Assembly (NCBI RefSeq): GCF_021731785.1
Contig: NZ_JAKFWS010000031.1
Coordinates: forward strand, 1-64,000
Source: Methylocystis sp.
GTDB taxonomy: Bacteria > Pseudomonadota > Alphaproteobacteria > Rhizobiales > Beijerinckiaceae
Reading direction: 5' to 3'
Length of the DNA: 64,000 nucleotides
The position numbers were made by a program, and so were the translations under genes. Shown here in pieces: positions 7,923-29,791 of this stretch. The notes under the pieces were generated by a model that was given only the letters and a program-made list of their open reading frames with translations, did not search any database and was not told where the DNA came from. The stretch's first letter is position 1; the number at the start of each line of letters is the position of its first letter.

Positions 7923-7996
7923 GCTGCTATCTCCTCGGTGAGTTAGTTACGCGGGTCGGCAACGCTCTCGCAAAAAACGCAAGTATGGGCATAATT

Positions 7997-8998: not shown

Positions 8999-10197
8999 GC
9001 CTTACGTCCCCATACAGCGAGGAGAAGCTCCTCGATTTCAGAGTTTACGGCATTCATTGCCGCAATCGCTCGATCGTATGTGCTCCGACTGAAACTCGTG
9101 CGCTCCACTTCATAGAGAGTCTGCTTCGACAAAGATGAGTCGGAGATCGCCGTTGTTTTTAGCATTGCATTCTTTAGGACATGCTCACCGCAGAGTCGCC
9201 GCATTAGAGTGTCCATTTGCTGTTGCGGCAAATCTGTAGGCTCAAAACGCGTCACGAGAAAACGAAAGGCGTCGTATTTCAAAACGAGCCCAAAATCCCG
9301 AAACACAGCCAAGAGATCCCCTGCCATCAGCAGATACTGGGAGGTCGATGAGACATCCAACATCTGCGGATGACAAGGAATGATGACAGTCGTTGCTGCA
9401 CATAAGGCAGAGAGCGTGAGGTAGCCCAGTTGCGGCGGACAATCGAAGATGACAAAGTCGAAATTCTCTTCTACCCGGTCAAGCATCACTCTGAGAGCTT
9501 TGTAGAATGGCGTCTTGCCCTTGACCCCTCGATTAACCGCGGTGGCGTGTTCAAACTCCATCAAATGTATTGATGACGGGACGAAGAACACTCCATCAAA
9601 ATACGATTCGCGTATGACCTCTTCGATTTGGACGCGCTCATCATCATAACGAAGCGCCCCGTATAGCGATTCATTCGGTTGCACCTCGGTTTCAGTGTGA
9701 TATCCGAACATGGTGCTGAGACTGCCTTGCGGATCGAGATCGATTGCTAGAACGCGATATCCTTGAAGAGCGAGGTATTGGGCCAAATGGGCGCTATGGA
9801 TTGTTTTTCCTATCCCGCCCTTAAACCCTGACACCGCGATTACTTGTAGCTTTTCGCCGTCGCGCCGGCGTTTGACGTAGCGCCGCGCGCCACCCCCGAC
9901 GTCCAGAAGCTCCCGAATTTCGTTGATCTGTTGAAGCGTATAGAGGCGGCGTCCGGTTGGAGTCGTTTCCAGCTCCGGGCCCTTACCGTCCAAGGATATT
10001 TGGCGAAGATAGGCATCGCTCACGCCGATGAGCTTTGCCGCTTCCGCGCAACTAAATGATCGAAGCCCCTTTTGTGAATTCGGAGGGAAGAGCTTGCTCC
10101 TCAGCTCCTGGAGATTATTCGACAATATCTCCCCGAGCTCCACCATAAGGGTGTCGCCTTCGTCAGCGAGTGTAACGCGTGGGGCGGGCAGGCTCAT
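8995..10197 (-). CDS. repA: RepA, ParA-family partition ATPase
   Basis: A 400-residue ParA-type ATPase. An N-terminal HTH region (FSCAEAAKLIGVSDAYLRQI, about 48-67) precedes the deviant Walker A KGGIGKT (126-132). The switch region DLDPQGSLS and the motif FVIFDCPPQLGYLTL are also present. RepA drives DNA segregation and, with RepB, represses the operon promoter. It is the first gene of repA-repB-repC. No clear ribosome-binding site precedes the ATG at 10197; a second in-frame ATG (Met18) is a possible alternative start. Confidence 0.95.
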   Translation of the reverse strand: MSLPAPRVTLADEGDTLMVELGEILSNNLQELRSKLFPPNSQKGLRSFSCAEAAKLIGVSDAYLRQISLDGKGPELETTPTGRRLYTLQQINEIRELLDVGGGARRYVKRRRDGEKLQVIAVSGFKGGIGKTIHSAHLAQYLALQGYRVLAIDLDPQGSLSTMFGYHTETEVQPNESLYGALRYDDERVQIEEVIRESYFDGVFFVPSSIHLMEFEHATAVNRGVKGKTPFYKALRVMLDRVEENFDFVIFDCPPQLGYLTLSALCAATTVIIPCHPQMLDVSSTSQYLLMAGDLLAVFRDFGLVLKYDAFRFLVTRFEPTDLPQQQMDTLMRRLCGEHVLKNAMLKTTAISDSSLSKQTLYEVERTSFSRSTYDRAIAAMNAVNSEIEELLLAVWGRKA

Positions 10198-10897: not shown

Positions 10898-11076
10898 ATT
10901 CCCAAATCAAAGGCGGAGCGCCGCTCGGCATTGAGTGCAGGAGCGGCTGGACGAGGATCGTGCCGCTGTCGCAGGATCTTCGCGAGAAGGTGATGAAGGC
11001 GATACTGCGCGAGATGTCTCGCCCCGACACTCGGTTCGATATTGGTCCCGCAAGCGATACGCAGAGGTTAGAATAG
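10898..11076 (+). pseudogene. IS630-family 5' end, decayed copy 1
   Basis: The frame reads LSQDLREKVMKAILREMSRPDTRFDIGPASDTQ then stops at 11076. It aligns with copy 2 at 12008-12360, including upstream DNA (TTCCCAAATC... and ...CTCGGCATTGAG against TTCCCATATC... and ...ATCGGCATTGAC). This is the N-terminal HTH of an IS630 transposase with a deletion of the RQAAAR segment; nothing of the DDE domain follows. Confidence 0.65.
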
Positions 11077-12007: not shown

Positions 12008-12360
12008 CATATCGTAAGCGGACCGCCGATCGGCATTGACTGGCGCGAGTGGCCCGGGAGGGGATCAGGGCGCTGTCGATGGATCTTCGCGAGAAGGTGA
12101 TGAAGGCGATCCGGGGCGGGATGTCGCGCCGTCAGGCCGCCGCGCGGTTCGATATCGGTCCGGCGACCGACGTGTGCTGGGCCAAGCGCGTCGAGATCAC
12201 CGGCGACATCGGCCCGGCGAAAATGGACGGCGACCACCGCTCGCAGCGCATCGAGGCGCATGCCGACTTCATTCTCGCGCAGATAGAGGAAAAGCCGGAC
12301 ATGACGATCATGGAGCTGAGCGACAAAGTCAGGCGACGCTGCGGCCTCGCCGTCGGCTAG
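12008..12360 (+). pseudogene. IS630-family transposase N-terminus, copy 2 (truncated)
   Basis: The frame from 12049 reads SMDLREKVMKAIRGGMSRRQAAARFDIGPATDVCWAKRVEITGDIGPAKMDGDHRSQRIEAHADFILAQIEEKPDMTIMELSDKVRRRCGLAVG and stops. That is the HTH half of an IS630 transposase, in which the DDE catalytic half should follow. Beyond 12360 no DDE motif is found, so the element is truncated. Together with copy 1 this shows two insertions or a duplication of the same IS in this region. Confidence 0.75.
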
Positions 12361-13086: not shown

Positions 13087-14466
13087 TTGGACAGGGCACG
13101 CGCAAAGAGAATGGCGGCCGAATTGGAGGGACGACTCGTTGGCGGCTGGACCATTGGGGCGTATTTGGGAAACGGTTTCTCAGCCGTAGTACTGTCGGCG
13201 GAAAAGGAGGGGCAAACCGCAGCTCTAAAAGTCATCGATCCAGAGATGGTGGAACGTGCGGGAACACAGAAGCAATTGGCGCGCATCCTTCGTGAGAAGG
13301 AGCTTGCTGGACATGGGCACCCGAACCTCGTCGACATTCTCGACGGTGGGCAATGCGGAGAAACAAACCACCTCTATGTGGCGATGGAACTTCTTGAGCC
13401 ACGGACATTGGGACAAGTTCGGAAGAAGCTGCCGGCCTCCAGGATTGGTCCGCTCATCGGTCAATTGGCACGAGCTACGCGCTTCCTAGAGGAACGCGGC
13501 GTTGCCCACCGTGATATCAAGCCTGATAATACGGTGGTTTCTCTTGACTTCAACCGCGTAAAGCTTCTCGACCTAGGCGTGATTCACCCTCCGGCCGATC
13601 CGAACGACCCAAGCGCGGGAACGGGTGATCGGTTCGTCGGTACAGCTCGTTACAGCCCACCGGAATTTTTGTACCGCGAGGAAGTGGACACTCTCGAGGG
13701 TTGGCGGGCTATCACGTTCTATCAATTAGGGGCAACGCTATATGACCTTCTTATGCGTCGACCGATCTTCGACGATTTCCGCGAGCCGCCGGCCCGATTG
13801 TATCGAGCCGTCAAGGACCACATCCCACTGATCGATGCGGAGGATGCCGACCCATGGCTGGTAGATCTGGCGCGGCGCTGCCTGCACAAGGACTGGCGGA
13901 TCCGAAAGGAGCTCGTCACTTGGGACGACTTTGAAGGCCCAAGATCGATGCCGGAATCGGCACAACAAATCCGAGAGCGCCTGAAGAAGCGGATCGAGGT
14001 CGCAAAAACCTCTGCATCAGTGGAAACCACAACCTCAGGAGCACGGCCGACGCGACGCACCTTGGACCAGTTAGCGGGCGCGATGGCTACAATGGCCCGC
14101 GAAGTGTGTCAGCATGGCGGCCTTTTTCCACCGGTTGAAGTGTTGCATATCGCCGGCGACAATAAATGTGTTGTTACCCTTAGGACCGGCCCCTCGGTCC
14201 CTCATGAACTCGCCGGCATCCTCGAGGTTCAGTTCGTTGTAGAACCGCTTGATGCGCAGGCCGCTAATGTTCGTATCACGGCTGCGGCAAGATTGGGCGC
14301 ACCACCAGGCGAGAAGTCAGCTCTGTTATTCGTCGGCGAGCCGTCCGCTCCTGCTTTGCGAGACGCTATCGATTCCTATCTGCATGCAACGCTTGAGAAC
14401 GCGTTGGGTACAGGGACACCGCCAGAAGTGGGTTTGTCTGTGCGTCCCAACATGCCAAGGCTTTGA
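13087..14466 (+). CDS. Serine/threonine protein kinase, first gene of the island
   Basis: A 459-residue protein with a Hanks-type kinase domain over residues 15-290. Visible elements are the Gly-rich loop region (LGNGFSAVV), Lys48 in AALKVID, the catalytic loop HRDIKPDN (His141-Asn148), DLG in place of DFG (Asp162) and an activation-segment GTARYSPPEF. Residues after about 310 form an unrecognised C-terminal domain that could sense a ligand or bind a partner. The TTG start is preferred because GGGAGGGG lies just upstream; an ATG at 13111 is the alternative. The stop is 3 bp before the helicase start. There is no transmembrane segment, so it acts in the cytosol. Kinases gate several phage-defence systems, which makes a triggering role plausible but unproven. 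Confidence 0.88.
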   Translation: MDRARAKRMAAELEGRLVGGWTIGAYLGNGFSAVVLSAEKEGQTAALKVIDPEMVERAGTQKQLARILREKELAGHGHPNLVDILDGGQCGETNHLYVAMELLEPRTLGQVRKKLPASRIGPLIGQLARATRFLEERGVAHRDIKPDNTVVSLDFNRVKLLDLGVIHPPADPNDPSAGTGDRFVGTARYSPPEFLYREEVDTLEGWRAITFYQLGATLYDLLMRRPIFDDFREPPARLYRAVKDHIPLIDAEDADPWLVDLARRCLHKDWRIRKELVTWDDFEGPRSMPESAQQIRERLKKRIEVAKTSASVETTTSGARPTRRTLDQLAGAMATMAREVCQHGGLFPPVEVLHIAGDNKCVVTLRTGPSVPHELAGILEVQFVVEPLDAQAANVRITAAARLGAPPGEKSALLFVGEPSAPALRDAIDSYLHATLENALGTGTPPEVGLSVRPNMPRL

Positions 14467-14469
14467 GCG

Positions 14470-15636
14470 ATGGTGATGGAGGCGTGGTGGCGAGAACAGA
14501 GCGAACTCGATAAGGACCAGCTCGATGTTATCGGATTGCCCGATGAAGGTAGTTTTCTTGTGAAAGGCCCGCCCGGCTCTGGAAAAACGAATTTGCTTTT
14601 GCTGAGGGCAAACTACCTGACGACTCGCTCACACCCCAATCTTGCGGTCATCGTGTTCAACGCAACGCTGCGTGAATTTATCCGGTCAGGTGCCCAGCGG
14701 TACGATTTTGACGTGCGCAATGTGCAAACTAGCGCGTCGTTGTTGGACGGGTTGTTGCGTGAAGCTGGGGTGCGAATAGAGCTGACCGGTGAATTCGAGA
14801 CGGACCGACTGACTCGAATTGAGCTGGCAGAACGCGTTCTTGTGCGACCGGGCCGTGCTCCACTCTACGATGTGTTGCTTGTCGACGAAGCTCAGGATTT
14901 TCTGCCGCGAGAGATCGTCCTGTTCCGGCACCTTACCCACGATCTCTTCATGGTGGCGGACAGCCGCCAGCGAATCTACGCCGGCGAGTCGCCGATGGAG
15001 GCGCTCGAACAGGCTTCCGAGAGGGTCTTAACCTTGCGATATCACTATCGAAACGGACCGCCGATTTGCGAGCTCGCCGACGCGATCGGCCGAACGTTCT
15101 CAGCCGGGTATGATCCCATTCTTCCAACTTGCAACTACAATTCGCCGGCGCTTAGGTCGAGCGTGAATGTCTTTCGTGGAACTTTGGCGCAGCAGGCCGC
15201 TGAGATTGCCCAGCGATTGACGCTCCAGCGGCGGACCTATCCGGAGGGCTTCCTAGGCGTGGTCTGTCCACGCGCCGCCGATGTTCGCGGCGTCGCCATT
15301 GCTTTGGAAGGAGTTGGCTTGGGGAACCTTTTATGCGTGCAGGACCGCGAGGGGCGATATCAAGCTATTCAACCTGACAAACCGATATGGGTCTCCACCA
15401 TCCACGGCGCCAAAGGCTTGGAATTCAGAGCGCTTCATTTCGCGGCCGCGGAGACCACGGTCTCGGCCGGCGCGGGACAAAAACGGCTTGCATACACTGC
15501 TGTCACCCGAGCAAAGACCGCTTTATCGGTATATCACGATGCGCACCTTCCGGGATATTTGGATGCAGCGGTTCAAAAATTTCGGCAGGCACCTGCAGAA
15601 CGCCCGGGCATAGGAGCAGCGTTTGGACGCCGTTAA
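14470..15636 (+). CDS. Small UvrD/PcrA-like superfamily 1 helicase or ATPase
   Basis: A 388-residue P-loop protein with Walker A GPPGSGKT (33-40), Walker B DEAQDF, motif IV-like RYHYRNGPP, STIHGAKGLEF (motif V) and YTAVTRAK (motif VI). These are SF1A helicase motifs, but the length is about half that of UvrD, and the accessory 1B/2B subdomains look shrunken or missing. It may be a DNA-stimulated ATPase rather than a processive helicase. The start follows the kinase stop by three bases and its end overlaps the next gene, so kinase, helicase and the following gene are translationally linked. Confidence 0.85.
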   Translation: MVMEAWWREQSELDKDQLDVIGLPDEGSFLVKGPPGSGKTNLLLLRANYLTTRSHPNLAVIVFNATLREFIRSGAQRYDFDVRNVQTSASLLDGLLREAGVRIELTGEFETDRLTRIELAERVLVRPGRAPLYDVLLVDEAQDFLPREIVLFRHLTHDLFMVADSRQRIYAGESPMEALEQASERVLTLRYHYRNGPPICELADAIGRTFSAGYDPILPTCNYNSPALRSSVNVFRGTLAQQAAEIAQRLTLQRRTYPEGFLGVVCPRAADVRGVAIALEGVGLGNLLCVQDREGRYQAIQPDKPIWVSTIHGAKGLEFRALHFAAAETTVSAGAGQKRLAYTAVTRAKTALSVYHDAHLPGYLDAAVQKFRQAPAERPGIGAAFGRR

Positions 15637-17011
15637 TCGCAATCTCTGGACAGCAGCTTTACGTCGCGAGCAATTGGTTGAATTGCTCGAAGGCCGTGGA
15701 CCTCGCCCGACGCGTGACGACCTGACGAGGCTTCGCCATACACATGGCGGCAAGGAGTTGTTGGGCGTTTGGGTTGCCGAGGATGATCGCTCCTTGTCCC
15801 CGCTGCCGCAAATTCTAATTGCGGAGCGGACGGTGCTCGATGACCTTTTTGCTTGGACCGCATCCTATCTGCGTGCGTTGGGTCCGCTCAGTGCCATCAC
15901 GCGGCCCCTTACCCCCAATCAGTTCGAAGCTCTCCTGGAGCGCAGGCTGCCACAGGAGCCTTGGAAAATTGCGGGAGGGGCAGTTGGCCTTGTCATCTGC
16001 GAAGTGATGACGCTCAGCGAAGGCATCGAGATCGAAGGCGCGGCAGGGGCCACGCCAAATAGCACGCTTTCGTTCGCGATCTTGCGTGCGTGGTCGCTCG
16101 GGCTTCCCCTCGACGCGATCAACGAGATATCTGATGGTTTTACTCGTCTTTCCCATGAGGTGCAGCGGTTGCTGCCCAAAAATATCGTCCGCGGGGTGGA
16201 GGAGATCTCTATTTCTCTCTTAGGTGCCGATTGCGATGGCGGCCGCATAGGCCTGCCGCCGCAACGCGCACGCCATTGGATGCATGATCTGCGGTCAGGC
16301 GCAAATATTTACGAACTAGGCCGTGAGGTCTTGCGTCAGTCTACCGATCTGTTGAGTAGCCATGACGTTGTGCATCTCGAAGAAATGACGGCAGAGAAGC
16401 GCGTGCAATTTTTTGACGCGGTGGCCCCTTCACTCGTCGCATCTGTGGCCAATGAGAATCGCCTTGATTCTGCCTTCGCTCTCGCCTTGGCCGCTTTTAT
16501 CTGCCGACCAGGATTAGAACAGCAGGCCAGCCTCCTAACGGAGCACGCTCAACCGCTGCCTGAGTCCTGGCTTTGGCTAGGAGCTTTGCAGGCCTTCGCT
16601 CCGATATCAGACGTGCTCTCAGTCGGTTCCGGCGCAGGATGGCGCATTGCACGCGAACTATTTCGTCCTGAAGACCCTTGGGCAGCGCCGAGGGCCGACG
16701 CAGCTCTTACCGAGATTGACGTTTTGTCTCGAAGCAATTCAAAGATATTTCAACGATTACTGGGTAGATCGCGCCTCGATGTCGAGATCTACCCCATGAT
16801 AACGACTGCGATTCGAGGAACGAACGCCGCAGCAGACCAACGACGCAATGAAGAAAGCACCCGCGCTGAGTATGTCGCGTCCCGCGACGCTGCTGCCTCA
16901 GGAAAATTGGAGCTGGTTGAGGCCAGCTTAGAAGAGTCGCTGCGCTTGGTGCGCGGCCTGCGCCGCTACGATGGAGGGCCTGGCAGCAAACCAACTCGAC
17001 GTCGCCGATGA
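15623..17011 (+). CDS. Unknown protein coupled to the helicase
   Basis: A 462-residue protein I do not recognise. The frame overlaps the end of the helicase by 14 bases and opens with TTG. It looks helical throughout and has no transmembrane segment or obvious catalytic motif. Landmarks are ELLEGRGPRPTRDDLTRL near the start, an EALLERRLPQEPWKIAGG stretch, the segment EEMTAEKRVQFFDAVAPSLVASVANENRLDSAFALALAAFI, and a basic C-terminus (GGPGSKPTRRRR) that could bind nucleic acid. Tight coupling to the kinase and helicase suggests a scaffold or target of the pair. A gap of 150 bp with a TATAAT box separates it from the nuclease gene. Confidence 0.75.
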   Translation: MDAVNRNLWTAALRREQLVELLEGRGPRPTRDDLTRLRHTHGGKELLGVWVAEDDRSLSPLPQILIAERTVLDDLFAWTASYLRALGPLSAITRPLTPNQFEALLERRLPQEPWKIAGGAVGLVICEVMTLSEGIEIEGAAGATPNSTLSFAILRAWSLGLPLDAINEISDGFTRLSHEVQRLLPKNIVRGVEEISISLLGADCDGGRIGLPPQRARHWMHDLRSGANIYELGREVLRQSTDLLSSHDVVHLEEMTAEKRVQFFDAVAPSLVASVANENRLDSAFALALAAFICRPGLEQQASLLTEHAQPLPESWLWLGALQAFAPISDVLSVGSGAGWRIARELFRPEDPWAAPRADAALTEIDVLSRSNSKIFQRLLGRSRLDVEIYPMITTAIRGTNAAADQRRNEESTRAEYVASRDAAASGKLELVEASLEESLRLVRGLRRYDGGPGSKPTRRRR

Positions 17012-17074
17012 TTGTAATAAGCTCAGTTGGTGGGGGACGCATAGGCGGACTGCACGACCAAAAAATCTGATAAG

Positions 17075-17080
17075 TATAAT
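17075..17080 (+). promoter_or_regulatory. Candidate -10 for the nuclease-ATPase genes
   Basis: A perfect TATAAT lies 80 bp upstream of the nuclease start in the only sizeable gap of the island's first five genes. The -35 region (TGCACG or so) is weak. It may permit separate expression of the SbcD/SbcC-like pair. Confidence 0.4.
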
Positions 17081-17161
17081 TTCACGCGTTGACGATCTCA
17101 TCAAACGCACAAAGGCGGACAAAACGAAGAGTGCAATTCAACTTAGCGTAGGACGTGCATC

Positions 17162-18436
17162 TTGAGACCCTTTCGCTTCATTCATGCCGCCGACATTCAC
17201 CTTGATAGCCCATTGACGGGGCTCGCCGGCTATGAGGGACCTGCTGTCGAGTGCATTCGTAGGGCAACGCGCCAAGCCTTCGACAATCTGATCAGCGAGG
17301 CGATTGACCAAGAAGTTGGTTTTGTATTGATAGCCGGCGATCTGTATGACGGCGACTGGCGCGATTATCAGACCGGCTTATTCTTCATCCGCCAAATGGG
17401 CAGGCTCGCGAAAGTGAACATTCCTGCGTTCGTACTCCACGGCAATCACGATGCAGAAAGCCAAATTACTCGGAGACTCACGCTTCCCGAAGGCGTCAAC
17501 GTGTTTTCCACTCGGAAGCCCGAGACATTCACACTTGAGGAACTTGGCGTTGCGCTTCACGGTCAAAGCTTCCGGCAGCGCAACGTTACCGACAACCTGG
17601 TCCCTGCTTACCCGGAGCCGGTTGAAGGGGCTTTCAACATCGGTATTCTGCACACCGGCATGGGTGGCATGGGCGGGCACGCGAATTACGCACCCTGTGC
17701 GCTCCATGAACTCGTCGCCAAGGGCTACGATTACTGGGCGCTTGGTCACGTTCACCAAGGCGTCATTCTGCACCAGAATCCCCATGTGGTTTTCCCCGGC
17801 AACCTACAGGGACGGCATATTCGGGAAACGGGCCCCAAGGGCGCATACCTTGTCTCTGTCGAGGATCACAAAATCGTCGAATTAGGCCTGCTGTACACCG
17901 ATGTCGTTCGCTGGGCTCATCTCCAGGTCAATGTCGATGGCTGCGACCGCAATGCCGATGCACTAGAGCGCGTGCGGCGCGCTATCGAACAAGCGATAGA
18001 AAGCGATGCCGATGATCGTCTTCTTGCGTGCCGTATCGAGCTAACCGGCCGCACCGAAATCCATGATCATCTACTGATATCGACCGAACATCTTCTCGCC
18101 GAGGCTCAGGCCGCTGCACTGGGGTTCGGCGACGCTGCGGCTTGGATCGAACGCGTCGTCGTTTCCACGGAACCCGTAATCGACCCCGCGGTGCTTGCTG
18201 TGCGTGAGGATGCGCTGGGGGAATTTCACCGCATGTTGGGAGATGCCGCTGCCGACACCGAATTGCTCGGTCAGCTAGAAGCAGATCTCAGCGAACTCGT
18301 CCGCAAGCTCCCATCCGAGTTACGTAGTGATATAGAGGATGCTGCCCTAAAAGCAGCTGTTCAGGCTGATTATCCCACTCTCATCACGCACGTACGCGGC
18401 TACCTCAATGCGCGCCTCACGGTTCAGGAGGGCTGA
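17162..18436 (+). CDS. Mre11/SbcD (YhaO)-like metallophosphoesterase nuclease
   Basis: A 424-residue protein with the full metallophosphoesterase signature: AADIHLDSP (Asp11, His13), AGDLYDGD (Asp60), HGNHDAES (Asn95-His96), LHTGMGG and GHVHQG. This is the nuclease of Mre11-Rad50 and of the Bacillus YhaO/YhaN pair. It is smaller than many SbcD proteins but has the capping C-terminal region (ADTELLGQLEADLSELVRKL). The start is a TTG with TAGGA 9 bases upstream. The next gene begins 3 bp after its stop, as expected for a nuclease-ATPase complex. It should act on DNA ends in a complex with the following ATPase. Confidence 0.9.
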   Translation: MRPFRFIHAADIHLDSPLTGLAGYEGPAVECIRRATRQAFDNLISEAIDQEVGFVLIAGDLYDGDWRDYQTGLFFIRQMGRLAKVNIPAFVLHGNHDAESQITRRLTLPEGVNVFSTRKPETFTLEELGVALHGQSFRQRNVTDNLVPAYPEPVEGAFNIGILHTGMGGMGGHANYAPCALHELVAKGYDYWALGHVHQGVILHQNPHVVFPGNLQGRHIRETGPKGAYLVSVEDHKIVELGLLYTDVVRWAHLQVNVDGCDRNADALERVRRAIEQAIESDADDRLLACRIELTGRTEIHDHLLISTEHLLAEAQAAALGFGDAAAWIERVVVSTEPVIDPAVLAVREDALGEFHRMLGDAAADTELLGQLEADLSELVRKLPSELRSDIEDAALKAAVQADYPTLITHVRGYLNARLTVQEG

Positions 18437-18439
18437 GCC

Positions 18440-21400
18440 ATGAGGCTTCAGCGACTTGATCTTCTGCGTTATGGCCGCTTCACCAATAGGCATCTCGAAT
18501 TGCCCGTGAGCAATTCCGATATCCATATAGTGTTTGGACCGAACGAGGCAGGCAAATCGACCGCACTTTCCGCCATAGAGGACTTGCTGTTCGGTGTTGA
18601 CAACAACTCGCGCTATAACTTCCTGCACGATTATGGAAGCATGAGAATCGGCGCCATCCTGGAGAACAGCGGGATGACCTTGGAGGTTAGGCGTCGCAAG
18701 GGCCACAAGGATACGTTACTGACAGCAGACGAGGTGCCCATCGCGGGGGGGAACGGCGCACTAGCCGCATTTCTTGCGGGTGCCGACCGGCCTTTCTTCG
18801 AACGTATGTTTAGTCTCGATCATGAGCGTCTTCGCACGGGCGGTCGCGAGATCCTCGAAGCGCAGGACGAAGTTGGCCAGATGCTATTCTCCGCCGGCGC
18901 TGGTCTCTCTGGGCTGCGAGACCGACTCAAAGCGCTCACCGAGGAAGGAGATAGCCTATGGGCTTCCCGGAAGGCAGGGCACAGGAAATATTACCAAGCT
19001 TTGGAACGTCTGGATGGCGCCGACAAGGCGCTTCGTGAACACACGGTCACGGCCAGCAAGTGGCAAGAGGTAAAACGTGCGTATGACGATGCGCATGAGG
19101 CCTATGATGGCCTTGAGAAACAGATCGAAGACATTTCGGCGGAGCAGCGAAAGCTGAGCCGTATTCGACGCGTCTACCGGGATATCCGAAAGATTGCCGG
19201 TCTAGTCGACGAGATCACTGCCTTAGGCGAAGTCATCCCGCTGCCCGAGGATGCGAGTTCGAAACTGGAAGCGGCGGAGCGCGAACACGCTGGCGCCACT
19301 GCGCGCGTCGAAACTCTTAAAGAACAGCTCGAAGGTGAGCGGAACCAACGTGATGCGCTGGAATGCAATGAGGAGCTTCTGATCCGAGAAGACGACATCC
19401 AGCAGTTCCATAAACGCCGAATCGAAGTGCAAAAAGAGAAGGCCGATTTGCCCAACCGCCGAGCCGATCTCGCGAGTGCAGAGGCAAATTTGCGGCGGCT
19501 AGCCGAGGAGCTGGAGTGGGAAGCTGACGACATAGAAACGCTGGTGAAGCGGATTCCGTCGCGCGCTAAGGCCACAGCTCTTCGCACGCTCCTTAACTCC
19601 CGCGGCGAGCGAATGTCAGACACTACGAATGCAAAGGTCGCAGTTGATGAATTGGAAAGTCAGATCGCTGACGTGCAGCAAGAGCTTGATGGCATGGGTG
19701 CGCCTATAGACGTGTCGAAGCTAGCGGCCATCGTCAAAGCGACACGTGAGAGCGATGATATCACATCACGAATAAATGCCGCCGAAAGCGAGACACGGGA
19801 GGCAAAAGCAGCCATCCAACGTCGCCTCAAAGCCCTTAAGCCGCTAGTTGACGAAGAAGAGACGTTGGCGTCAACGCCGGTGCCGGCACGCGACACGGTA
19901 CAAAATCATCGTGATGCCCGGCGCAGCGCCGACCAAAAGATACAGGCTTGTCGCGAGCGTATCCGAGCCGCCAATCAGGATTTGGCAAGATACCGCAAGG
20001 CGCATGAGCGGCTTGCCCACGACGAGGATGCAGTTGCCCCAAGGGACATTGCCGACGCACGCGAATTGCGCGACACTGGTTGGTCGTTAATTCGCCGGCA
20101 CTATGTCGAAGGTGAGTCTGTCCCTGATGCTGAAATCCGCGCGTTTGCAAGCACCGAAGGTGATCTGACCAACAGATATGAGGCGGCTGTCAGTGCCGCC
20201 GACACTTTGGTCGATCGTCGATTCGACAATGCTCAGGCGGCAGCTCAGATTGTCATTACCTCCCGGCAGATCGTAGAGCAACAGGAATTGTTGGAAGGCT
20301 TGCGTGAAGAAGAAAGTGCGCTTGCAGAGGAAAGCCGCACGTTGGATTCTGCCTGGCAAGAGATGTGGGCTGGGGCTCTTTTCAAGCCGCTAGGACCCGA
20401 TTTGATGCTGGAATGGTTTACCTCACGGAGTGAGATACTTGAGGCTATCGCGTGCCGTGCGACAGCCGAGCGCAAACTGGCGACTCTCCGCGGCGAGGAG
20501 ACAGACGCCAAGGCTCGCATTCTTGCAGAATTGGCTGTTGTCGCTGCCGAGACCGAAGCTCTCTACGACCAACCGCTACGGATCGTCATGGAAGCTGCAA
20601 TCGCTGTTCAAACCCGGCATGAAAATGATGCCGCCAATAGGCGCCAATTGGAAGAACGGGTTCGCAAGATGAAAGCCGAAGCTGTCCGCAAGCGCGCAGC
20701 GTTAGAAACGGCAGCAGCGGCATGGGGCAATTGGCAGACTGAGTGGCTTGCTGCGCTTAAACTCGTTGGCGTGGCTGCTGACACACAGCCCGAGGCAGCC
20801 AGTACGCAGCTTGACGCCATTGATCGGGTGCGGGAGATCGCGGTCGAAATCAATCAACTGCGCCACGAGCGGATCGAGAAAATTGAAAACGATATCGACG
20901 TCTTCGGTCAGGACGTCGAAGCCCTCGTGGCCATTGTTGCAAATGATCTTACGAAAACAGGCTCGGAGGACGCAATTCTTGAGCTAGAGCGCCGTCTTGA
21001 GAGCGCGAAACGAATACGCGAGCAGCAGAAGAGCAAGGATGCGGCCATTTCATCCCTGCAAGAAAAGATCGATGGATGCGTGGCTTCGGGGCGTCAGGCG
21101 CGTGAGACGATTAGCCACCTCCAAGAATCTGCTGGTGTGACTGATATTGATCAGCTCAAAGCTGCTATCCACAAGTCCGATAAGTTGAGGGAACTGGAAA
21201 GCGGACGTTCTTCGGTTATGGACGCGCTTGCACGGGAAGGCGACGGACTATCGCTGGCTGAGTTGAATAAGGAATGCGAACCCGTTGATGTCGATCAAGT
21301 GGGTGCCCGTGAGGAGTCGCTTGAACAGGAACTGAAGGAATTACGCGGTCGGCTAATGGAGGCCTCAGAACACCAAACCCAGACTCGAATCGCATTCGAG

Positions 21401-21991
21401 GCTATTGGCGGGGACGACCGCGCTGCGGAAGCTGCGGCGGTCAGACAAGCAGCGCTCGCCGAACTTAGGGAGGTCGCTGCACAATACGTTCGCGTTCGAT
21501 CCGCCGCCACTATGCTCCAATGGGCCATTGAGCGCTACCGCCGCGAGAAGCAGGCTCCGCTTCTCAAACGTGCCGGAGAAATTTTCGCCACGCTTACCAG
21601 CGGTTCTTTCAAGGATCTACGGGTCGAGTTCGATCAACACGACCATGCTCAACTGGTCGGTCTTCGCCCCGACGGGAAGCAAGTCCGCGTTGGCGGGATG
21701 AGCACGGGTACAGCCGATCAACTCTATTTAGCGCTGCGGGTTGCCTCGCTAGAAGATTATCTTGGCCTCACGAACGCTCTTCCGTTTGTCGCCGACGACC
21801 TTTTTATTAATTTTGATGATACGCGCGCGTCGGCAGGCTTTGAAGTTCTTGGCCAATTGGCACGCAAGACTCAGATTCTGTTTTTTACCCACCACCGGCA
21901 TTTGGTCGAAATTGCCCAAGCAACCCTTGGACAATCGGTAGCGGTCGTCTCCTTGGTAGAGGAAGCAGCTGCTGCTGCTGCGGAAAATTAG
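18440..21991 (+). CDS. Rad50/SbcC-like (YhaN-type) coiled-coil ATPase
   Basis: An 1183-residue SMC-class ATPase. Walker A GPNEAGKST (33-41) is followed by about 1000 residues of coiled-coil and charged helical sequence, and then a C-terminal head with the motifs RVGGMSTGTADQLYLALRVA (ABC signature) and FVADDLFINFDD (Walker B) plus HHRHLV. No CxxC zinc hook is visible in the middle, which points to the YhaN subfamily rather than canonical Rad50/SbcC. The protein should clamp DNA and control the adjacent nuclease. It starts three bases after the nuclease stop and ends 145 bp before the next, still larger, SMC-like ATPase. Confidence 0.9.
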   Translation: MRLQRLDLLRYGRFTNRHLELPVSNSDIHIVFGPNEAGKSTALSAIEDLLFGVDNNSRYNFLHDYGSMRIGAILENSGMTLEVRRRKGHKDTLLTADEVPIAGGNGALAAFLAGADRPFFERMFSLDHERLRTGGREILEAQDEVGQMLFSAGAGLSGLRDRLKALTEEGDSLWASRKAGHRKYYQALERLDGADKALREHTVTASKWQEVKRAYDDAHEAYDGLEKQIEDISAEQRKLSRIRRVYRDIRKIAGLVDEITALGEVIPLPEDASSKLEAAEREHAGATARVETLKEQLEGERNQRDALECNEELLIREDDIQQFHKRRIEVQKEKADLPNRRADLASAEANLRRLAEELEWEADDIETLVKRIPSRAKATALRTLLNSRGERMSDTTNAKVAVDELESQIADVQQELDGMGAPIDVSKLAAIVKATRESDDITSRINAAESETREAKAAIQRRLKALKPLVDEEETLASTPVPARDTVQNHRDARRSADQKIQACRERIRAANQDLARYRKAHERLAHDEDAVAPRDIADARELRDTGWSLIRRHYVEGESVPDAEIRAFASTEGDLTNRYEAAVSAADTLVDRRFDNAQAAAQIVITSRQIVEQQELLEGLREEESALAEESRTLDSAWQEMWAGALFKPLGPDLMLEWFTSRSEILEAIACRATAERKLATLRGEETDAKARILAELAVVAAETEALYDQPLRIVMEAAIAVQTRHENDAANRRQLEERVRKMKAEAVRKRAALETAAAAWGNWQTEWLAALKLVGVAADTQPEAASTQLDAIDRVREIAVEINQLRHERIEKIENDIDVFGQDVEALVAIVANDLTKTGSEDAILELERRLESAKRIREQQKSKDAAISSLQEKIDGCVASGRQARETISHLQESAGVTDIDQLKAAIHKSDKLRELESGRSSVMDALAREGDGLSLAELNKECEPVDVDQVGAREESLEQELKELRGRLMEASEHQTQTRIAFEAIGGDDRAAEAAAVRQAALAELREVAAQYVRVRSAATMLQWAIERYRREKQAPLLKRAGEIFATLTSGSFKDLRVEFDQHDHAQLVGLRPDGKQVRVGGMSTGTADQLYLALRVASLEDYLGLTNALPFVADDLFINFDDTRASAGFEVLGQLARKTQILFFTHHRHLVEIAQATLGQSVAVVSLVEEAAAAAAEN

Positions 21992-22045
21992 AACCTCGAA
22001 TTACCGTTCCACCAATGCCCAAGTGGTTTTGGTAATGAGAATTTA

Positions 22046-22063
22046 GTTCGTCTTTAGACGAAC
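22046..22063. promoter_or_regulatory. Inverted repeat before the SMC-S24 gene
   Basis: GTTCGTCT-TT-AGACGAAC has perfect 8-bp arms and sits about 75 bp upstream of the SMC-like gene, inside a 145-bp gap that also has a longer imperfect repeat (ATTACC...GGTAAT). It could be an operator for a repressor or an RNA hairpin controlling readthrough from the previous gene. Confidence 0.5.
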
Positions 22064-22136
22064 ATGCAGCGTTCCTTTCTCTAAAAGAGCGGTGGCGTGT
22101 GTCGGTAAAGGCGCAAATCAAGAGGCTCGCTTTCGT

Positions 22137-25100
22137 ATGGGAATATCGTTAGCAGAAGCGACCGGGTTGCTTTTGGCCGGTACGAAGCTCGCCTGGAACA
22201 AATATAAGGATCACAAGGCAGGCTCAATCACCCTCGACAAACCCGAGCAGCGTCGCTTGCTTGAATTCCTGCTTGCCGCTGATTCCAGCAAGGTCGCCAG
22301 CGGTGACGAGACCCTATTCGCCGGCCTTGTCGCGGTCTGGGAAAACAAGGACCATGACCCAGCGAAAGCCAAAGCGAACGCCGTCGGTAAGGCGAGCACG
22401 CAGTCGTGGCGACTAGCTCGCATCGAGGCTTTCGGCTTCGGCGGTCTGACCATCTTTGGCGGCAAACCGTTTGACCTCTACGTTGGTGGCAACAACTGGT
22501 GCCTTGAGGGGCAGAACGGCTCCGGCAAGACCTCGCTCGTGAGCGCGATCCTCTGGGCGCTAACAGGTAAACGCATCCGCGAACATGAAGGGCCGGTAGA
22601 CGAACGCGGTGAGCGCGAGGATGTCGAAAGCGACGATGGGACGAAAGTTGGTAACTGGCCGCCGCTGGCAGCCTATCCGACGACCATTGCAGACTTACGA
22701 AAACAAGCTGAAGTGTGGGTGCGGCTTACCTTCAAAGCAGCTGACGGCGACACGGCAACAGCCTATCGCCGAATGGTTAGCCCGTTGCTTGGCAACGCCC
22801 AGCTAGAAGAGCAGATCGACGACCGCCTGAAAGCGGCGCTCCGCCTTGCAGAAATCGGTGTTTTGATGCCGGCGCGGCTTGCGAAGATCGGCTTCGGGAG
22901 AAGCAGCCTAACGCTCTATGAGGCGGTGAAGCAGCTGACCGGCCTCGATCAGCTATCCGACATTGCCGAAGGCGTTACAGCCTTCGGTGCTGGTAACCGC
23001 AAGTTCATGAAATACGCCAAGGACCAAGGCATAGAGAATTACGAACGTAAGTTCGCCGATAATATCGCCAGCGCGAAACAGTTGGCGGAGGAGTTCGACT
23101 TTAAGCTGCCCGAGACCATCAGACTCGGCGAAAAGGAAATCGACGAAACGCTCAAGGCGGCAGCAAAACGGGCATCCGACGGCGCGGGTAAGCATCTTGA
23201 GACGCTGAAGAACGAAATCCCCGCTACCATCGACACGACCACAGCCGAGGGTCGCAACACCATTAAAACGGCAGTATCTAGTGCGCGCGGTCTTGTCACA
23301 CAGGGACCGAAGTCTATCCCGCTATTTCAGACGTGGAAGGCTTTGACCGACGCCGCTACTGCCTCGGATTTCGCCAACCTACCGGCTGCCTTGGAAACGG
23401 CCAAGGCGAACCTAAAGAAAGCTTTGGAATGGCACGACCGCCAGACAGCTGACGTCAAACTGCGCCTGAAGGCGCTGGCTGCGCAGAGCTTCATTCCGGT
23501 CAAGGATGCCGACGCCGATTGCCCACTATGTACGTCGCCGCTCGATAACGAAAAGAAACGAGCGCTAGCGGTCGAGCTGGAGGAACTGAAGACCAATGCC
23601 GACGCTGCTGAACGCAAAATTGCCGACGTGTGCCGCAGTATCCAAGAGGCGGTGACGGCTACGGTGCCCGTGGCTATCCGCAATTCGCGAACCACTATCG
23701 ACAAGATGGAGCCTGCGGAAGCCTACGCCGTCGCCATGCAGGAGAAGTTTGTCACGGACGAACCGTTCTCGAACGTCCTCACCGGCCTCGCGGCTTCGGC
23801 AAAGACGCTGGTCGAGGATCAAAAGGGTGCACTTCCGCACTTCACCTATGCCGAGCTCACGCCGACAAAAGGCGAACCAGAGTCGGTGATGCAGCTACGG
23901 CGCGAAATTCACGCGCTGGAACGTCTGATCGCATTGGTGGAATGGTGGAAGACCGCGCGCCCCGCTTTCAGCGATGCATGGAGCGCGCTGATCGGCAAGA
24001 AGCAAGAGGATGGGATTTTTCCGGCCCATAGCGTGGAAGGTAAGCTGGCTGTGCTTGAACAGGCGCTGGGTCATGCCCGACCGCTGGATGATCTATCCAA
24101 GCACCTAACGCACGCTGCAACGGCAGCGACGACGTGGGTCCGAATCGACACCGTTCAAAAAACGCGCGAAGCGATCAAAGACGCGCTGGAACCCCTCAAG
24201 GCCATGCGAGTGCTGGTCGCGGCGGAAACGGCCAGCTCTATTGCCGGGCTGTCTGGCACCATCATTGCCGTCTGCGAGCGCATTTGCTTGAAGGAGCGAC
24301 TTGCCTATGAGGAAGCGGTTATTGGCAGGAAGGAAGTCAGCGTTACCGGTAGCTTCAGCTCCGGCATGCGCATCAATGCAGCGCTCGTCGCCAACACCTC
24401 GTGGCTGCGCGCGATCCTATGGTCGTTCGTCTTCGCCCTACGCGAAGAGACGCTTAAGGCGATAGGATTCAATCCGTTGCCGCTGATGGTCCTCGATGAT
24501 CCGCAAGGGACCTTTGATCCGCGCAATAAGCGCAAATGGGCACAGGAGCTGGTGCGCTGCGCCAACATGCCGACCACCGATTTGCTCGGCGCGCAGCTCA
24601 TCGTGGTGACACACGAGCGTAACTTCTACCAAATGATGATTGATCATGAAAAATTCCTTGCGCAGCAAGGCCTCATCGGCGGCGTGAATAAGGTTTCCGG
24701 AGTCGCCACCGTCGCCAACGGTGGCGAGCTTCAGCGGGTCTATAGTGAAGCCAAGGCAAATAACAACGACGCCAAGGCTCGTGAGTATATCCGTAAGGTG
24801 CGCATTTACTGCGAAGACCTTATCAAGTTCATGCTGCGCAGTGTCAGCAATCGAATCCCAGACATGTCGCTTAATGAGCTTAAGGAGGAGCTGAAGAAGC
24901 TTTGCAAGGCGCATGTCGCACCGTTCGACCGTAAGGCGTTCGAGACGCTTATCAAGGCCCTTAACGAGAGCCAGAAAGCCGTCCAGTATATCAACGAGCC
25001 GCACCATAAAGATGATGAGAGCTTCGGCGTCGCCGAGGCTGATGTGGTCAAGGAGTATTGGGACAAGACCCTGCTCGACAAAATTCACACCGCGTTCAGC

Positions 25101-26003
25101 GTCTTCGACACTTTCGATCTATACACAGGCGAACCGCGCACGTTCCCGTGGGCGAAAAACGTCATCGAATTCCCGGATGGCCATAAGAGCAAGGTCAAGG
25201 AATCTGAAATGCAGCAGACCGGCATCGCGGCGGCAGCAAAAACCGACGGCCGTGCCGGCGACGGCCTCTTAACCGTGAAGGAATGGGATTCGGGCGACAA
25301 GGTTGTCCTGCCGAACCATGATGTATTTCAGCTCGCGGCGGGCACGCTCGACCCCGTGGCCGGCATCGGCGATCTTATCATCGTCAGCAACTACGCAACA
25401 ATCAACCCGCGCAACCTGGTGGTGGCCGTTTTGGGAAGCGCGCTATTGGCGCGCCGCTTTAACAAGCCAGAGAACCATTCAGAAATCGTTGTGCTTACCG
25501 GGCAAGCCGTTGACCCGTCCGCGCTGCCCCCGCCAGTGATCGTCCAGCCTGATACCGATTTCCGCAAAATTGTCGGTACACTATTCACGTCGCATCTCTT
25601 GCCGGTCCCACCGATTGATCCGGAGCGCGAGTTCGTCGCAGTACCTGACCCGGATATCTTAGACGAAACACTGAAAGGCGCACGACTATTCAAGGTAGAA
25701 GGGCGCAGCGCCGAGCCCATTGCTCTTGAAGGGCAGTTCCTCATCACCCGCGACAAGCCTGTAAAAGCGAACGAAATTGCGTCACTCGATGGACGACTGG
25801 TCGTGGGCATCGACGAAGATGGCGCACGGTATTTCAAGCGGCTTCGGTGTCACGACAAGATCGTGGTGTTGGAGAGCCTGAACCCAGACGGGCTAACAGC
25901 GGCGGAGGTCCTGAGCTTGGACGGGTCGCATTCCTTCCCGAAAATCACGGAAGCGCTTGAAGTCATCGGAGTTCTTTTTGAGCTGCCAAATTCTAAATCA
26001 TGA
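22137..26003 (+). CDS. SMC-like zinc-hook ATPase with C-terminal S24/LexA-like peptidase folds
   Basis: A 1288-residue protein from the ATG at 22137 (a GTG 45 bases upstream is an alternative). The N-terminal head has LEGQNGSGKTSL (Walker A about 125-132); CPLC (462-465) is a zinc hook flanked by helical arms; LMVLDDPQGTFDP (near 787) is Walker B. After about residue 1050 two segments resemble the S24 peptidase fold. The second reads VEGRSAEP, GQFLI, DGRLVVGIDEDGARYFKRL, VVLESLNP and VIGVLFELP, with Ser1191 and Lys1234 at a spacing compatible with the Ser-Lys dyad of repressor-type S24 proteins. The first has Thr1070 and Arg1106/1107 instead and is probably inactive. This fusion is new to me. 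It may couple DNA sensing to proteolysis, of itself or of a partner. Confidence 0.82.
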   Translation: MGISLAEATGLLLAGTKLAWNKYKDHKAGSITLDKPEQRRLLEFLLAADSSKVASGDETLFAGLVAVWENKDHDPAKAKANAVGKASTQSWRLARIEAFGFGGLTIFGGKPFDLYVGGNNWCLEGQNGSGKTSLVSAILWALTGKRIREHEGPVDERGEREDVESDDGTKVGNWPPLAAYPTTIADLRKQAEVWVRLTFKAADGDTATAYRRMVSPLLGNAQLEEQIDDRLKAALRLAEIGVLMPARLAKIGFGRSSLTLYEAVKQLTGLDQLSDIAEGVTAFGAGNRKFMKYAKDQGIENYERKFADNIASAKQLAEEFDFKLPETIRLGEKEIDETLKAAAKRASDGAGKHLETLKNEIPATIDTTTAEGRNTIKTAVSSARGLVTQGPKSIPLFQTWKALTDAATASDFANLPAALETAKANLKKALEWHDRQTADVKLRLKALAAQSFIPVKDADADCPLCTSPLDNEKKRALAVELEELKTNADAAERKIADVCRSIQEAVTATVPVAIRNSRTTIDKMEPAEAYAVAMQEKFVTDEPFSNVLTGLAASAKTLVEDQKGALPHFTYAELTPTKGEPESVMQLRREIHALERLIALVEWWKTARPAFSDAWSALIGKKQEDGIFPAHSVEGKLAVLEQALGHARPLDDLSKHLTHAATAATTWVRIDTVQKTREAIKDALEPLKAMRVLVAAETASSIAGLSGTIIAVCERICLKERLAYEEAVIGRKEVSVTGSFSSGMRINAALVANTSWLRAILWSFVFALREETLKAIGFNPLPLMVLDDPQGTFDPRNKRKWAQELVRCANMPTTDLLGAQLIVVTHERNFYQMMIDHEKFLAQQGLIGGVNKVSGVATVANGGELQRVYSEAKANNNDAKAREYIRKVRIYCEDLIKFMLRSVSNRIPDMSLNELKEELKKLCKAHVAPFDRKAFETLIKALNESQKAVQYINEPHHKDDESFGVAEADVVKEYWDKTLLDKIHTAFSVFDTFDLYTGEPRTFPWAKNVIEFPDGHKSKVKESEMQQTGIAAAAKTDGRAGDGLLTVKEWDSGDKVVLPNHDVFQLAAGTLDPVAGIGDLIIVSNYATINPRNLVVAVLGSALLARRFNKPENHSEIVVLTGQAVDPSALPPPVIVQPDTDFRKIVGTLFTSHLLPVPPIDPEREFVAVPDPDILDETLKGARLFKVEGRSAEPIALEGQFLITRDKPVKANEIASLDGRLVVGIDEDGARYFKRLRCHDKIVVLESLNPDGLTAAEVLSLDGSHSFPKITEALEVIGVLFELPNSKS

Positions 26004-26898: not shown

Positions 26899-27761
26899 TC
26901 AGGCCGCACGAGCGGAGACAGTCGGATATTGTTTCGCCCAGTTCCACGGCAGCAGCTCATCAAGCCGGTGCGCGGGATGGTCGGCGATGCGAGAGAGGAC
27001 GTCAGCGAGCCAGGCCTGAGGATCGACGCCATTCATTTTGGCTGTGACGATGAGACTATACATTGCCGCAGCGCGCTGCCCGCCGCGATCGGATCCGCAG
27101 AACAGCCACGATTTTCTTCCCAGCGCGATGCCTCTTAGCCCTCGTTCCGCAGCATTGTTGGACAAGCACACGCGTCCGTCTTCGAGGAACAGCGTGAACG
27201 CGGTCCAACGCTTGAGCATGTAATTGACAGCCTTGACCAGGTCGTGCCCGCGCGAGAGCCCGGCCGCCTGCTCGCGCAAATAGCCCCACAGACCATCGAC
27301 CAGCGGCCGGCTCAGCGTGCGGCGGACCGCCAGGCGTTCTTCGGCGCACTTTCCATTGATGGACCGCTCGATCTCGAACAGGGCGTCGATGCGGCGCACG
27401 ACCTCGATCGCGATCGGAGACAAAGGGATTTCCTTTTTGCCCGCTGCCTTGCGGCGCGCGTTCTCCTCCAGATCAGCCATGGCGAAGAAGGGGCGCCGCG
27501 CGTGCACCCAGCACGCCGCCTCCTTGACCGGGCCGGGCTTGCGGTCCGCCAGATAGAGCCTGTTGTAACCGTCATAGGCATCCGCCTGCAGGATGCCGGC
27601 ATATCCCGCCAGATGCGCCTGCGGATGCTCGCCCCGGCGATCGCGCGAGTAATAGAACATCGCCGCCGGCGGCCCGGCGCCGCCGAACGGATTGTCGTCT
27701 CGAACATAAATCCAGCACCGCCCGGTATCGGTCTTGCCTTCGGCCAGAACCGGCACGGTCG
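26899..27761 (-). CDS. tnpC: IS66 transposase TnpC, 3' exon
   Basis: The C-terminal 287 residues of an IS66 transposase: [73 protein letters not shown] and [25 protein letters not shown]. The catalytic Asp-Asp-Glu residues should be those in YDG, the upstream exon and the NNAAERG helix. Joining base 31607 to 27761 gives the normal family sequence [13 protein letters not shown] and keeps frame (790 + 863 = 1653 nt), so splicing would restore a 550-residue transposase. The ORF track start (27786) lies within the intron. Confidence 0.88.
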
Positions 27762-27874
27762 GGCGAGTAGGCCGAGGGACTTTCACCCCCGGCCTCTCTC
27801 AGGTAGGGTCGGGGACTGGCGCGCCGGCATTGATCAGCTCGCGACCGAACCACGTTTCCAGCCCCCGCCACGTC

Positions 27875-27907
27875 GAACGCAGCATGCGGTTTTCCCGCAC
27901 TACGCTC
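27875..27907 (-). ncRNA. Group II intron domain V, inner intron
   Basis: GAGCGTAGTGCGG-GAAA-ACCGCATGCTGCGTTC folds as a 33-nt hairpin with a GAAA tetraloop and a bulged lower stem, the layout of domain V, the catalytic core that binds metal ions in group II ribozymes. Confidence 0.75.
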
Positions 27908-27939
27908 TCCTGTTTGTTTCGCCTCAAGGATTATGGGAC

Positions 27940-29241
27940 CTATCGTGCCGGAGCGACTTTCGAAGCGGGCCTTACAACTCGGTAGCCGTTAAAAAGCTTC
28001 AGAGTTTGGTACAACCAACTCCTAGTCCATCGCGTCCAGCCGAAGCCCTGTCGGTTCTTGGCTCTCATCATGTGGCGCCTGATCTTCTTTTCAACCCAGT
28101 CCTTTACCATTCCGAAGCACTTGCTGGCGTGCCCCACCGCAAAGTAGTTCACCCAACCGCGCAGCACCGGATTGATCAACTTGACGATCCGATCAACCGG
28201 TTGCGATTGGTGGCGGCGGAACACAGCCTTGAGCTTCCGTAGCAGCGCTGTCCGCTTTTTGAGTTTGGGCGTGTAATGAGCACGCCATACACCTCGCAGA
28301 CTGCGCATGCGGCGGAAGTCGAACCCCAGGAAGCCGAAACTTTCGCCTCGGCATAGATCCACGATTCGACTTTTCTCTTCGTTGATTTCGACCTGCAGTT
28401 TGGCGAGCTCTTGCCGCAACCGCTTCTCCACCGCCGCCATCAGCCAGTCATGTCGCGGGTGGGCGTCGACCAAGATCACCAGGTCGTCCGCGAATCTCGC
28501 GTATTCGACAGAGGTGTACTTGCCGTAACGCGTGACCTCTTTCGCGCGCTCCAGCATCTTATCAACCTCCGTGAGGTAGATGTTGCTGAGCAGCGGCGAA
28601 GCGACCCCGCCTTGCGGAACGCCTTGCTTTCCGTTGGATTTGAGCATGACCTTCAGCAGGTGCATCACGTCGTCATCATCCACCCGCTCGGCCACCTTCG
28701 CCAACAACCGATCATGTCGGACATTGTCGAAATAGCTGCGCAGGTCGATATCTATAACGCGTGTTTTCTGCTGAACGATGGCTCGCGCCACACGGTCCAC
28801 CGCTTCGTGAGCTGTCCGGCGGGGACGGTATCCAAACGACCCCGGCTGGAAGTCTGCCTCGAAGATAGGTTCCAATATGAGTTTGAGCGCACCCTGTACC
28901 ACCCGGTCGCGGATCGAGGGAATCGAAAGAACGCGGACCTTGCCGCCATCTTTCGGAATTTCCTGTCTCCGAGCCGGTAACGGCACGTAGGAGCGTTCGA
29001 CCAGTTCGTCCGCTATCTGCGCGAGGAAAGCCTCTACGCCTTGCGCTTCGATGGCCTCGAAGGTCACGCCGTCACTTCCCGGAGCGCCTTCGTTCTCTTT
29101 GGCCAGCGCATACGCCTCGCGTAGCGTTTCCAGTTTGCAGATATGGACATACAGTCCCCAGAACTTCCAGGACGTCTCAGCCTTCGCCTTGACGTATATT
29201 CTCCGCCGCAGGTCTTGCAAATCGATGGACGCCTTTGTCAT
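27940..29241 (-). CDS. ltrA: Group II intron reverse transcriptase/maturase, inner intron
   Basis: A 433-residue RT with the finger-palm motifs GAPGSDGVTFEAIEAQG, RVLSIPSIRDRVVQGALKLILEPIFEADFQPGSFGYRP, LRSYFDNVRHDRL, PQGGVASPLLSNIYL, ARFADDLVILV (catalytic FADD in place of YADD) and FLGFDFRR. A group II maturase X domain follows (LINPVLRGWVNYFAVGHASKCFGMVKDWVEKKIRRHM). No HNH endonuclease domain is present. It should help its own intron splice and retrohome. All core motifs are intact, so it could be active. Confidence 0.92.
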   Translation of the reverse strand: MTKASIDLQDLRRRIYVKAKAETSWKFWGLYVHICKLETLREAYALAKENEGAPGSDGVTFEAIEAQGVEAFLAQIADELVERSYVPLPARRQEIPKDGGKVRVLSIPSIRDRVVQGALKLILEPIFEADFQPGSFGYRPRRTAHEAVDRVARAIVQQKTRVIDIDLRSYFDNVRHDRLLAKVAERVDDDDVMHLLKVMLKSNGKQGVPQGGVASPLLSNIYLTEVDKMLERAKEVTRYGKYTSVEYARFADDLVILVDAHPRHDWLMAAVEKRLRQELAKLQVEINEEKSRIVDLCRGESFGFLGFDFRRMRSLRGVWRAHYTPKLKKRTALLRKLKAVFRRHQSQPVDRIVKLINPVLRGWVNYFAVGHASKCFGMVKDWVEKKIRRHMMRAKNRQGFGWTRWTRSWLYQTLKLFNGYRVVRPASKVAPAR

Positions 29242-29755
29242 CTCGTCCTTGCCTTCCTTATGGTCGGAGACTTCACAAACAGCAGGGCCCCTTTGCTCCG
29301 CGGACGTTATTCCGCTTCATCGCTCATACGGACCCATCCGCCACCCTCTCGTCTTCGATCGATTTCCCGGTTGGGCCGGTTATACGATCTACCCTGCTCC
29401 GGTGATTTCGCACCGGGACGAGGAGGGCTTCTCCAGTTGCTCGGCATGTCCTTGCCACCGTGCTGTCGCTTCCACCCCGCCGAAGTAAAGGAGCCGCTTC
29501 GGTCAGATTTCGGCTCCCCATGCTGCCTTCGCCCTACGGTTGCAGGCTCGACCTTCGGGGTTACTCACTTTCGAGGCCACTTTTGCGTTCACTTTCATTA
29601 CGGCCCGGTGACTCGTGATCTCCCCAGGGGAGATCTTGTCGATAGGCTTCAGAGTCTTGGTTTCCCGCCACCCTGCTATCCAAACTACGGGGCTTCTGAC
29701 TCTTACCCCGGCAGGTCTATCTCCTGCTGAACACGCCAGCTTTCGCTGGACACAC

Positions 29756-29788
29756 AACCGGGCGTGAGGCTCTCGCCTCACCCGGCTC
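29756..29788 (-). ncRNA. Group II intron domain V, outer intron
   Basis: GAGCCGGGTGAGGC-GAGA-GCCTCACGCCCGGTT is a near-perfect domain V hairpin with a GAGA loop. It is immediately followed by the GTGTG 5' end of the inner intron. Confidence 0.85.
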
Positions 29789-29791
29789 CCA

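Follow-up and report, generated by a model that had tools for sequence, protein, structure and literature searches.

The window analysed here is a stretch of 64,000 nucleotides, bases 1-64000 of a 131,122-base contig from a genome of 4.2 Mb. Its central feature is a run of six co-oriented open reading frames (Table 1), all of them present as described in the initial annotation. The kinase and UvrD genes are separated by 3 bp, the UvrD and P3 genes overlap by 14 bp and the YhaO and YhaN genes are again separated by 3 bp, and larger gaps of 150 bp and 145 bp, also in agreement with that annotation, precede YhaO and P6. The P6 frame opens at a GTG (22092-26003), but P6 homologues begin at the residue encoded by the ATG at 22137, and the gap before P6 is therefore taken as 145 bp. 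P3 may start at TTG 15623 or slightly downstream. The earlier domain calls hold for the kinase, the UvrD-type protein, the SbcD-like nuclease, the YhaN-like ATPase and the family-less P3, whereas the protein listed as an SMC-like ATPase (P6) is a Rad50-like protein with a zinc hook, whose C-terminal S24/LexA-like domains had been overlooked.

Table 1. Features of the window, in order of position.
Feature	Position	Strand	Details
repB, repA, S-element RNA	7776-10197	-	Pfam RepB and ParA-type; Rfam S-element RF00490
Direct repeat, left flank	10955-11023 / 12062-12130		86% identity
Unit 1 gene 1, Hanks-type Ser/Thr kinase	13087-14466	+	459 aa, TTG start; Pfam Pkinase 8.5e-23
Unit 1 gene 2, mini-UvrD SF1 ATPase	14470-15636	+	388 aa; Pfam UvrD_C_2 and UvrD
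Unit 1 gene 3, P3	15623-17011	+	462 aa; no family or fold matched
Gap P3–YhaO	17012-17161		150 bp
Unit 2 gene 1, YhaO/SbcD-like Mre11-type nuclease	17162-18436	+	424 aa; Metallophos 4.9e-12
Unit 2 gene 2, YhaN-like ATPase	18440-21991	+	1183 aa; AAA_27 1e-74
Gap YhaN–P6	21992-22136		145 bp
Unit 3, P6, Rad50-like ATPase with two predicted S24/LexA-like domains	22137-26003	+	AAA_23, Rad50_zn_hook
Right flank	26899-32456	-	
IS66 transposase gene, halves	26899-27786, 31563-32456	-	
Group II intron maturase ORFs	27940-29241, 29792-31048	-	
Group II intron RNA	29593-29729, 31412-31531	-	
Second defence-like gene block	33530-58023	-	
AbiU-like	33530-34606	-	
Type I R, S, M subunits	34540-41334	-	
Large proteins without assigned family	41217-43436, 53810-56593	-	
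Further group II intron	43533-44128	-	Rfam D1D4-2 44008-44128; Intron_gpII 43533-43608
GajB/RecD-like helicases	45870-47939, 50355-53825	-	

The island adjoins a repABC plasmid replication locus, as indicated by the RepB and RepA genes and the S-element RNA to its left. The decayed insertion-sequence DNA reported on both flanks is broadly borne out: the left flank consists of short related fragments that include an 86% direct repeat and look IS630-like on visual inspection only. On the right, a break at about position 77 of the DDE profile splits an IS66 transposase gene, the two halves of which are held apart by stacked or nested group II introns. Beyond this gene, on the reverse strand, lies a second defence-like gene block, with a further group II intron in its type I restriction-modification region.

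Each of the six proteins was searched for by profile among the ORFs of 132 loci and then of further loci; the mini-UvrD alignment, scanned against genome contigs, brought in another 29 close relatives (E at most about 1e-66). These profile searches divide the six genes, exactly at the two non-coding gaps, into three units that occur separately in other genomes: kinase–UvrD–P3, YhaO–YhaN and P6. In a survey of 31 other UvrD–P3 loci, 19 YhaO–YhaN regions and 9 P6 regions, joined units are seen in a single case, a Phyllobacterium plasmid, and all six genes stand side by side in this region only. The region is thus a composite of three independently inherited units beside a plasmid repABC locus. 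The initial annotation had proposed a candidate new defence or DNA-surveillance system of six genes. A conserved, unnamed operon of defence-island-like character is supported for kinase–mini-UvrD–P3 but not for the set of six, the members of which are scattered and do not recur together, an outcome that the annotation itself had named as refuting its proposal. Scans for promoters and terminators in the region gave no signal above that of shuffled sequence, so the operon borders are drawn by comparison only.

Mini-UvrD is followed by P3, in the same order, in all 34 loci examined (the window, L004, L005, L032-L060, L147 and L148; L158 is apparently the same genome as L051), with the kinase gene in first place in 30 of them. 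Taxonomically, they span Alpha-, Beta- and Gammaproteobacteria, desulfobacteria, Acidobacteria and Planctomycetes, and because the order recurs in such unrelated phyla, it is far beyond what chance would give for the first three genes. The distance from the kinase stop to the UvrD start ranges from -4 to +22 bp (27 loci), and the mini-UvrD relatives share 35-57% identity with the window's copy. Distribution is rare and patchy: 3 of 385 alphaproteobacterial genomes and 2 of 399 phylum-sample genomes (the window's counted in) contain UvrD, and the 3 of 265 class-sample genomes that contain P3 (the window's, G101 and G156) are those that also have UvrD. Copies sit on plasmids (two by profile search) and on chromosomal contigs, and flanking genes are not recurrent. 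By tblastn against plasmids, mini-UvrD lies beside the kinase in Cupriavidus and Rhizobium, where YhaO, YhaN and P6 are absent, and P3 gave nothing in plasmids and phages by the same method, the profile search later placing it beside UvrD on two plasmids. Where the sequence extends far enough past P3, which it does not in L041, L044, L047, L050 and L054, no other copy has YhaO, YhaN or P6 after it. The module was not found in viral or phage records, a pattern scan of viral contigs gave no match to mini-UvrD, and a literature search returned no description of a kinase–UvrD–P3 gene set. Directly 3′ of P3 the gene varies (a STAND-like ATPase, an FRG fragment, a HATPase protein, DUF2971 and proteins of no known type), and a fourth gene recurs too little to count as part of the module. 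A family of ∼170-180 aa that has no Pfam match occupies this place in three loci (L037 12549-13058, L054 4526-5062 and L055 12439-12957).

The mini-UvrD protein carries Walker A (residues 33-40), DEAQD (139-143), HYRNG (192-196), AKGLEF (314-319) and TRAK (346-349) motifs, which are conserved in 32 aligned members; since these SF1 motifs are present, the protein should bind and hydrolyse ATP. Compared with the lengths of the 1B and 2B subdomains of UvrD, the spacing of the motifs appears too tight to hold both in full, and the protein is predicted to be a bare SF1 core. Its closest solved relatives are HelD (top PDB match, 2.2e-23), UvrD, PcrA and GajB, and HelD is also the top NCBIfam match (1e-9), at a score of 36.9 against a cut-off of 419. 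The HelD-specific arms are absent from this core of 388 aa, Bacillus subtilis HelD being matched over the core only (chain residues 527-762). Cyanobacterial mini-UvrDs are solo genes in ordinary surroundings and were set aside as members of the module, as was the mini-UvrD of Deinococcus gobiensis, which is distant (26.8%) and has a neighbour that is not P3 by profile. On plasmid P4 (L164 1-7833) the latter stands after a helicase-related and a DUF1998 gene, which resemble the drmA–drmB pair of DISARM, and before the gene of an unassigned 576 aa protein. In Micromonospora yasonensis (L061 7933-13400) a UvrD-type helicase gene overlaps that of a 1272 aa protein in which a NERD and two kinase domains are recognizable by eye, a PglW-like arrangement and an actinobacterial parallel to the kinase–UvrD pairing.

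P3 matches no family in Pfam, NCBIfam or PADLOC, and W318, D359 and E364 are invariant in 29 aligned members. AlphaFold2 models P3 with confidence (mean pLDDT 86.2, pTM 0.82), and Foldseek searches with this model against PDB and BFVD gave no match at E<=0.001; a profile search of PDB likewise gave none. The predicted fold of P3 is thereby unmatched among solved (PDB) and viral (BFVD) structures.

In the kinase, K48, H141-R142-D143, N148 and D162 are invariant among 25 aligned homologues, and the initial annotation had named Lys48 correctly. The model of this protein (pLDDT 82.6) places an alpha+beta domain C-terminal to the kinase domain, and a fold search with the model returned ordinary kinases only and was uninformative on the C-terminal domain. 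Four of the 34 loci (L035, L042, L047 and L148) keep UvrD–P3 and have another gene in place of the kinase. That of L035 encodes a P-loop ATPase of 528 aa belonging to the Sll1717 family (NCBIfam ATPase_Sll1717, 206 bits against a cut-off of 75, contig bases 77046-78464 inside the ORF); those of L042 and L047 encode a common family of 296-299 aa with 48% mutual identity; and that of L148, where UvrD bears an extra N-terminal region, encodes an unassigned protein of 275 aa, a third family. An assignment of the L042/L047 family to Abi_C (PF14355), suspected by eye, found no confirmation, the matches of that family in the genome of L047 lying elsewhere. The first position is therefore exchangeable around a constant UvrD–P3 pair, and these four cases suggest that a change of gene 1 would be a change of effector.

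Named defence systems resemble parts of unit 1. The mini-UvrD has its best PADLOC match in C3a187 (NERD with UvrD, 8e-17) and the kinase matches C3a189 (1e-17); PADLOC groups a UvrD with a kinase in this way, both as candidate accessory genes, but unit 1 lacks NERD, consists of separate short proteins and has P3 as a constant third gene. The best PADLOC match of the unit 1 kinase (P0001) is PD-T4-6 (2e-31). PD-T4-6 is a single-gene system, whereas the unit 1 kinase does not stand alone, being translationally coupled to UvrD and P3 and found with them in 30 loci. The module has in common with Gabija a UvrD-like ATPase of reduced size that acts together with a partner; GajB functions in a complex and showed no unwinding of DNA in vitro (PMC10681800). 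Gabija differs in that GajA is an OLD-type ATPase with TOPRIM where unit 1 has a kinase and P3, and the SF1 core of unit 1 is shorter (388 aa). None of the three unit 1 proteins matches the GajA family, and the weak GajA matches of P0005 are generic ATPase matches. Ser/Thr kinases also occur in multi-gene defence loci as PglW of BREX type 2 and as the methylation-associated MAD6 kinases, to which the kinase domain gives weak matches, but unit 1 contains none of the core genes of BREX or MADS. No drmA–drmB, dpd or brx/pgl core genes (DISARM, Dpd and BREX) were found in the window's unit 1, and DpdF was seen near L033 only.

Unit 2 is an Mre11-type nuclease adjoining an AAA_27 ATPase. Nuclease motifs are visible in the sequence of the YhaO-like protein, which also matches Mre11 structures, and in relatives YhaN always adjoins YhaO. 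The pair is present in 20 of 101 genomes (the window's counted in) and in 13 of 63 genera, and within the regions fetched from other genomes no kinase module lies near it. It has the same two-gene make-up as the B. subtilis-type YhaO–YhaN pair, from which no difference was found, and is an ordinary, patchily spread member that would act as a separate Mre11/Rad50-type nuclease–ATPase pair.

P6 combines a Rad50-type Walker A, a CPLC (CxxC) zinc hook and an LDDPQ Walker B with a C-terminal part of ∼270 residues. Peptidase_S24 (PF00717) is detected in 10 of 10 members, the window's C-terminal part scoring 26.8 bits against a cut-off of 23.3. The first half of this part aligns with LexA (PDB) but is devoid of the Ser and Lys, and in the second half Ser1206 and Lys1249 are invariant in 11 of 11 sequences. 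P6 is thus predicted to carry an S24 (LexA/UmuD-type) domain with a conserved Ser–Lys dyad and to be a protease. The likeness to Rad50/SbcC lies in the Walker A, CxxC hook and LDDPQ Walker B and that to LexA/UmuD in the dyad, but P6 differs from both families in that the two are fused in one solo protein; a literature search found no description of a Rad50–S24 fusion. The gene is normally solo (L006, L008, L146 and L152-L157), is found by tblastn as a lone gene on plasmids of Sphingomonas and Rhizobium, and gave one short weak match in a scan of viral contigs. On plasmid p_2 of Phyllobacterium sp. 628 (L007 6303-17036), the order YhaO–YhaN–SH3 gene–P6, with P6 annotated in two pieces, lies directly beside repABC, as do all three units in the window; units 2 and 3 may both favour this location. 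Functionally, P6 may couple recognition of DNA ends to proteolysis.

The reading we favour, at about even chances, is that the island holds three cargo units and that unit 1 is self-contained and most likely anti-phage, with UvrD–P3 as sensor and gene 1 as effector. In this scheme mini-UvrD and P3 would form a constant sensing complex in which mini-UvrD engages invader nucleic acid, a DNA end or a stalled polymerase, with P3 as its partner; the complex would switch on the Hanks kinase, the exchangeable effector, which may in turn phosphorylate host or phage targets such that growth or phage replication stops. A named defence protein lies within 10 kb in at least 6 of the 31 other loci, plus the window, a raw count taken without matched control genes; these neighbours of the other copies are Hachiman, Gabija, type I R-M, DpdF, type IIG R-M and IetA, and the window's copy has type I R-M genes (about 34.5-41.3 kb) and GajB-like helicases further on. 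Two findings speak against an anti-phage role: the module is absent from the viral and phage records searched, and the nearest solved relative of mini-UvrD is the RNA-polymerase motor HelD.

As the effector role of gene 1 is drawn from the four non-kinase cases, the assignment of roles could also be reversed: unit 1 would then be a defence or stress module, with sensing or regulation falling to the kinase and P3, or UvrD–P3, acting as toxic effector. The invariant acidic and aromatic residues of P3 could make an active site, and there is precedent for a kinase as regulator in CapK, an ssDNA-activated kinase of a different fold that regulates immune operons (PMC13373217). Replacement of the kinase while UvrD–P3 stay is, however, the usual behaviour of an effector, and we regard the reversed assignment as unlikely. 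A role outside immunity, in plasmid maintenance, DNA damage or transcription recycling, with a HelD-like motor regulated by phosphorylation, is improbable: HelD, an RNA-polymerase motor, heads both the PDB and NCBIfam matches of mini-UvrD and the window's copy lies ∼3 kb from repA, but only the SF1 core is similar, chromosomal contigs carry copies as well, and exchange of gene 1 and the defence neighbours fit defence better. The single kinase–helicase–Mre11/Rad50–SMC system first proposed, in which kinase and helicase would signal to the nuclease-ATPase proteins, is very unlikely, for the common strand, short gaps and YhaO–YhaN–P6 adjacency on the one Phyllobacterium plasmid are outweighed by kinase modules without these genes downstream, by units 2 and 3 occurring without the module, and by gaps that fall precisely at the unit borders.

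In place of the guessed six-gene system there is now a compact three-gene unit open to cloning and immediate testing, and with P3 comes a family of proteins whose fold is predicted with confidence yet unmatched. The rule of a fixed UvrD–P3 pair with an exchangeable first gene offers a way to find further members and effectors. We propose, with considerable doubt, that unit 1 represents a new modular immune class, in which a reduced SF1 ATPase and a new-fold protein would serve as a universal sensor for exchangeable effectors, and that P6 constitutes another system, of one gene, where sensing of DNA ends by a Rad50-type ATPase would trigger a built-in LexA-type protease. If true, P6 would directly link Rad50-type DNA sensing to LexA-type proteolysis.
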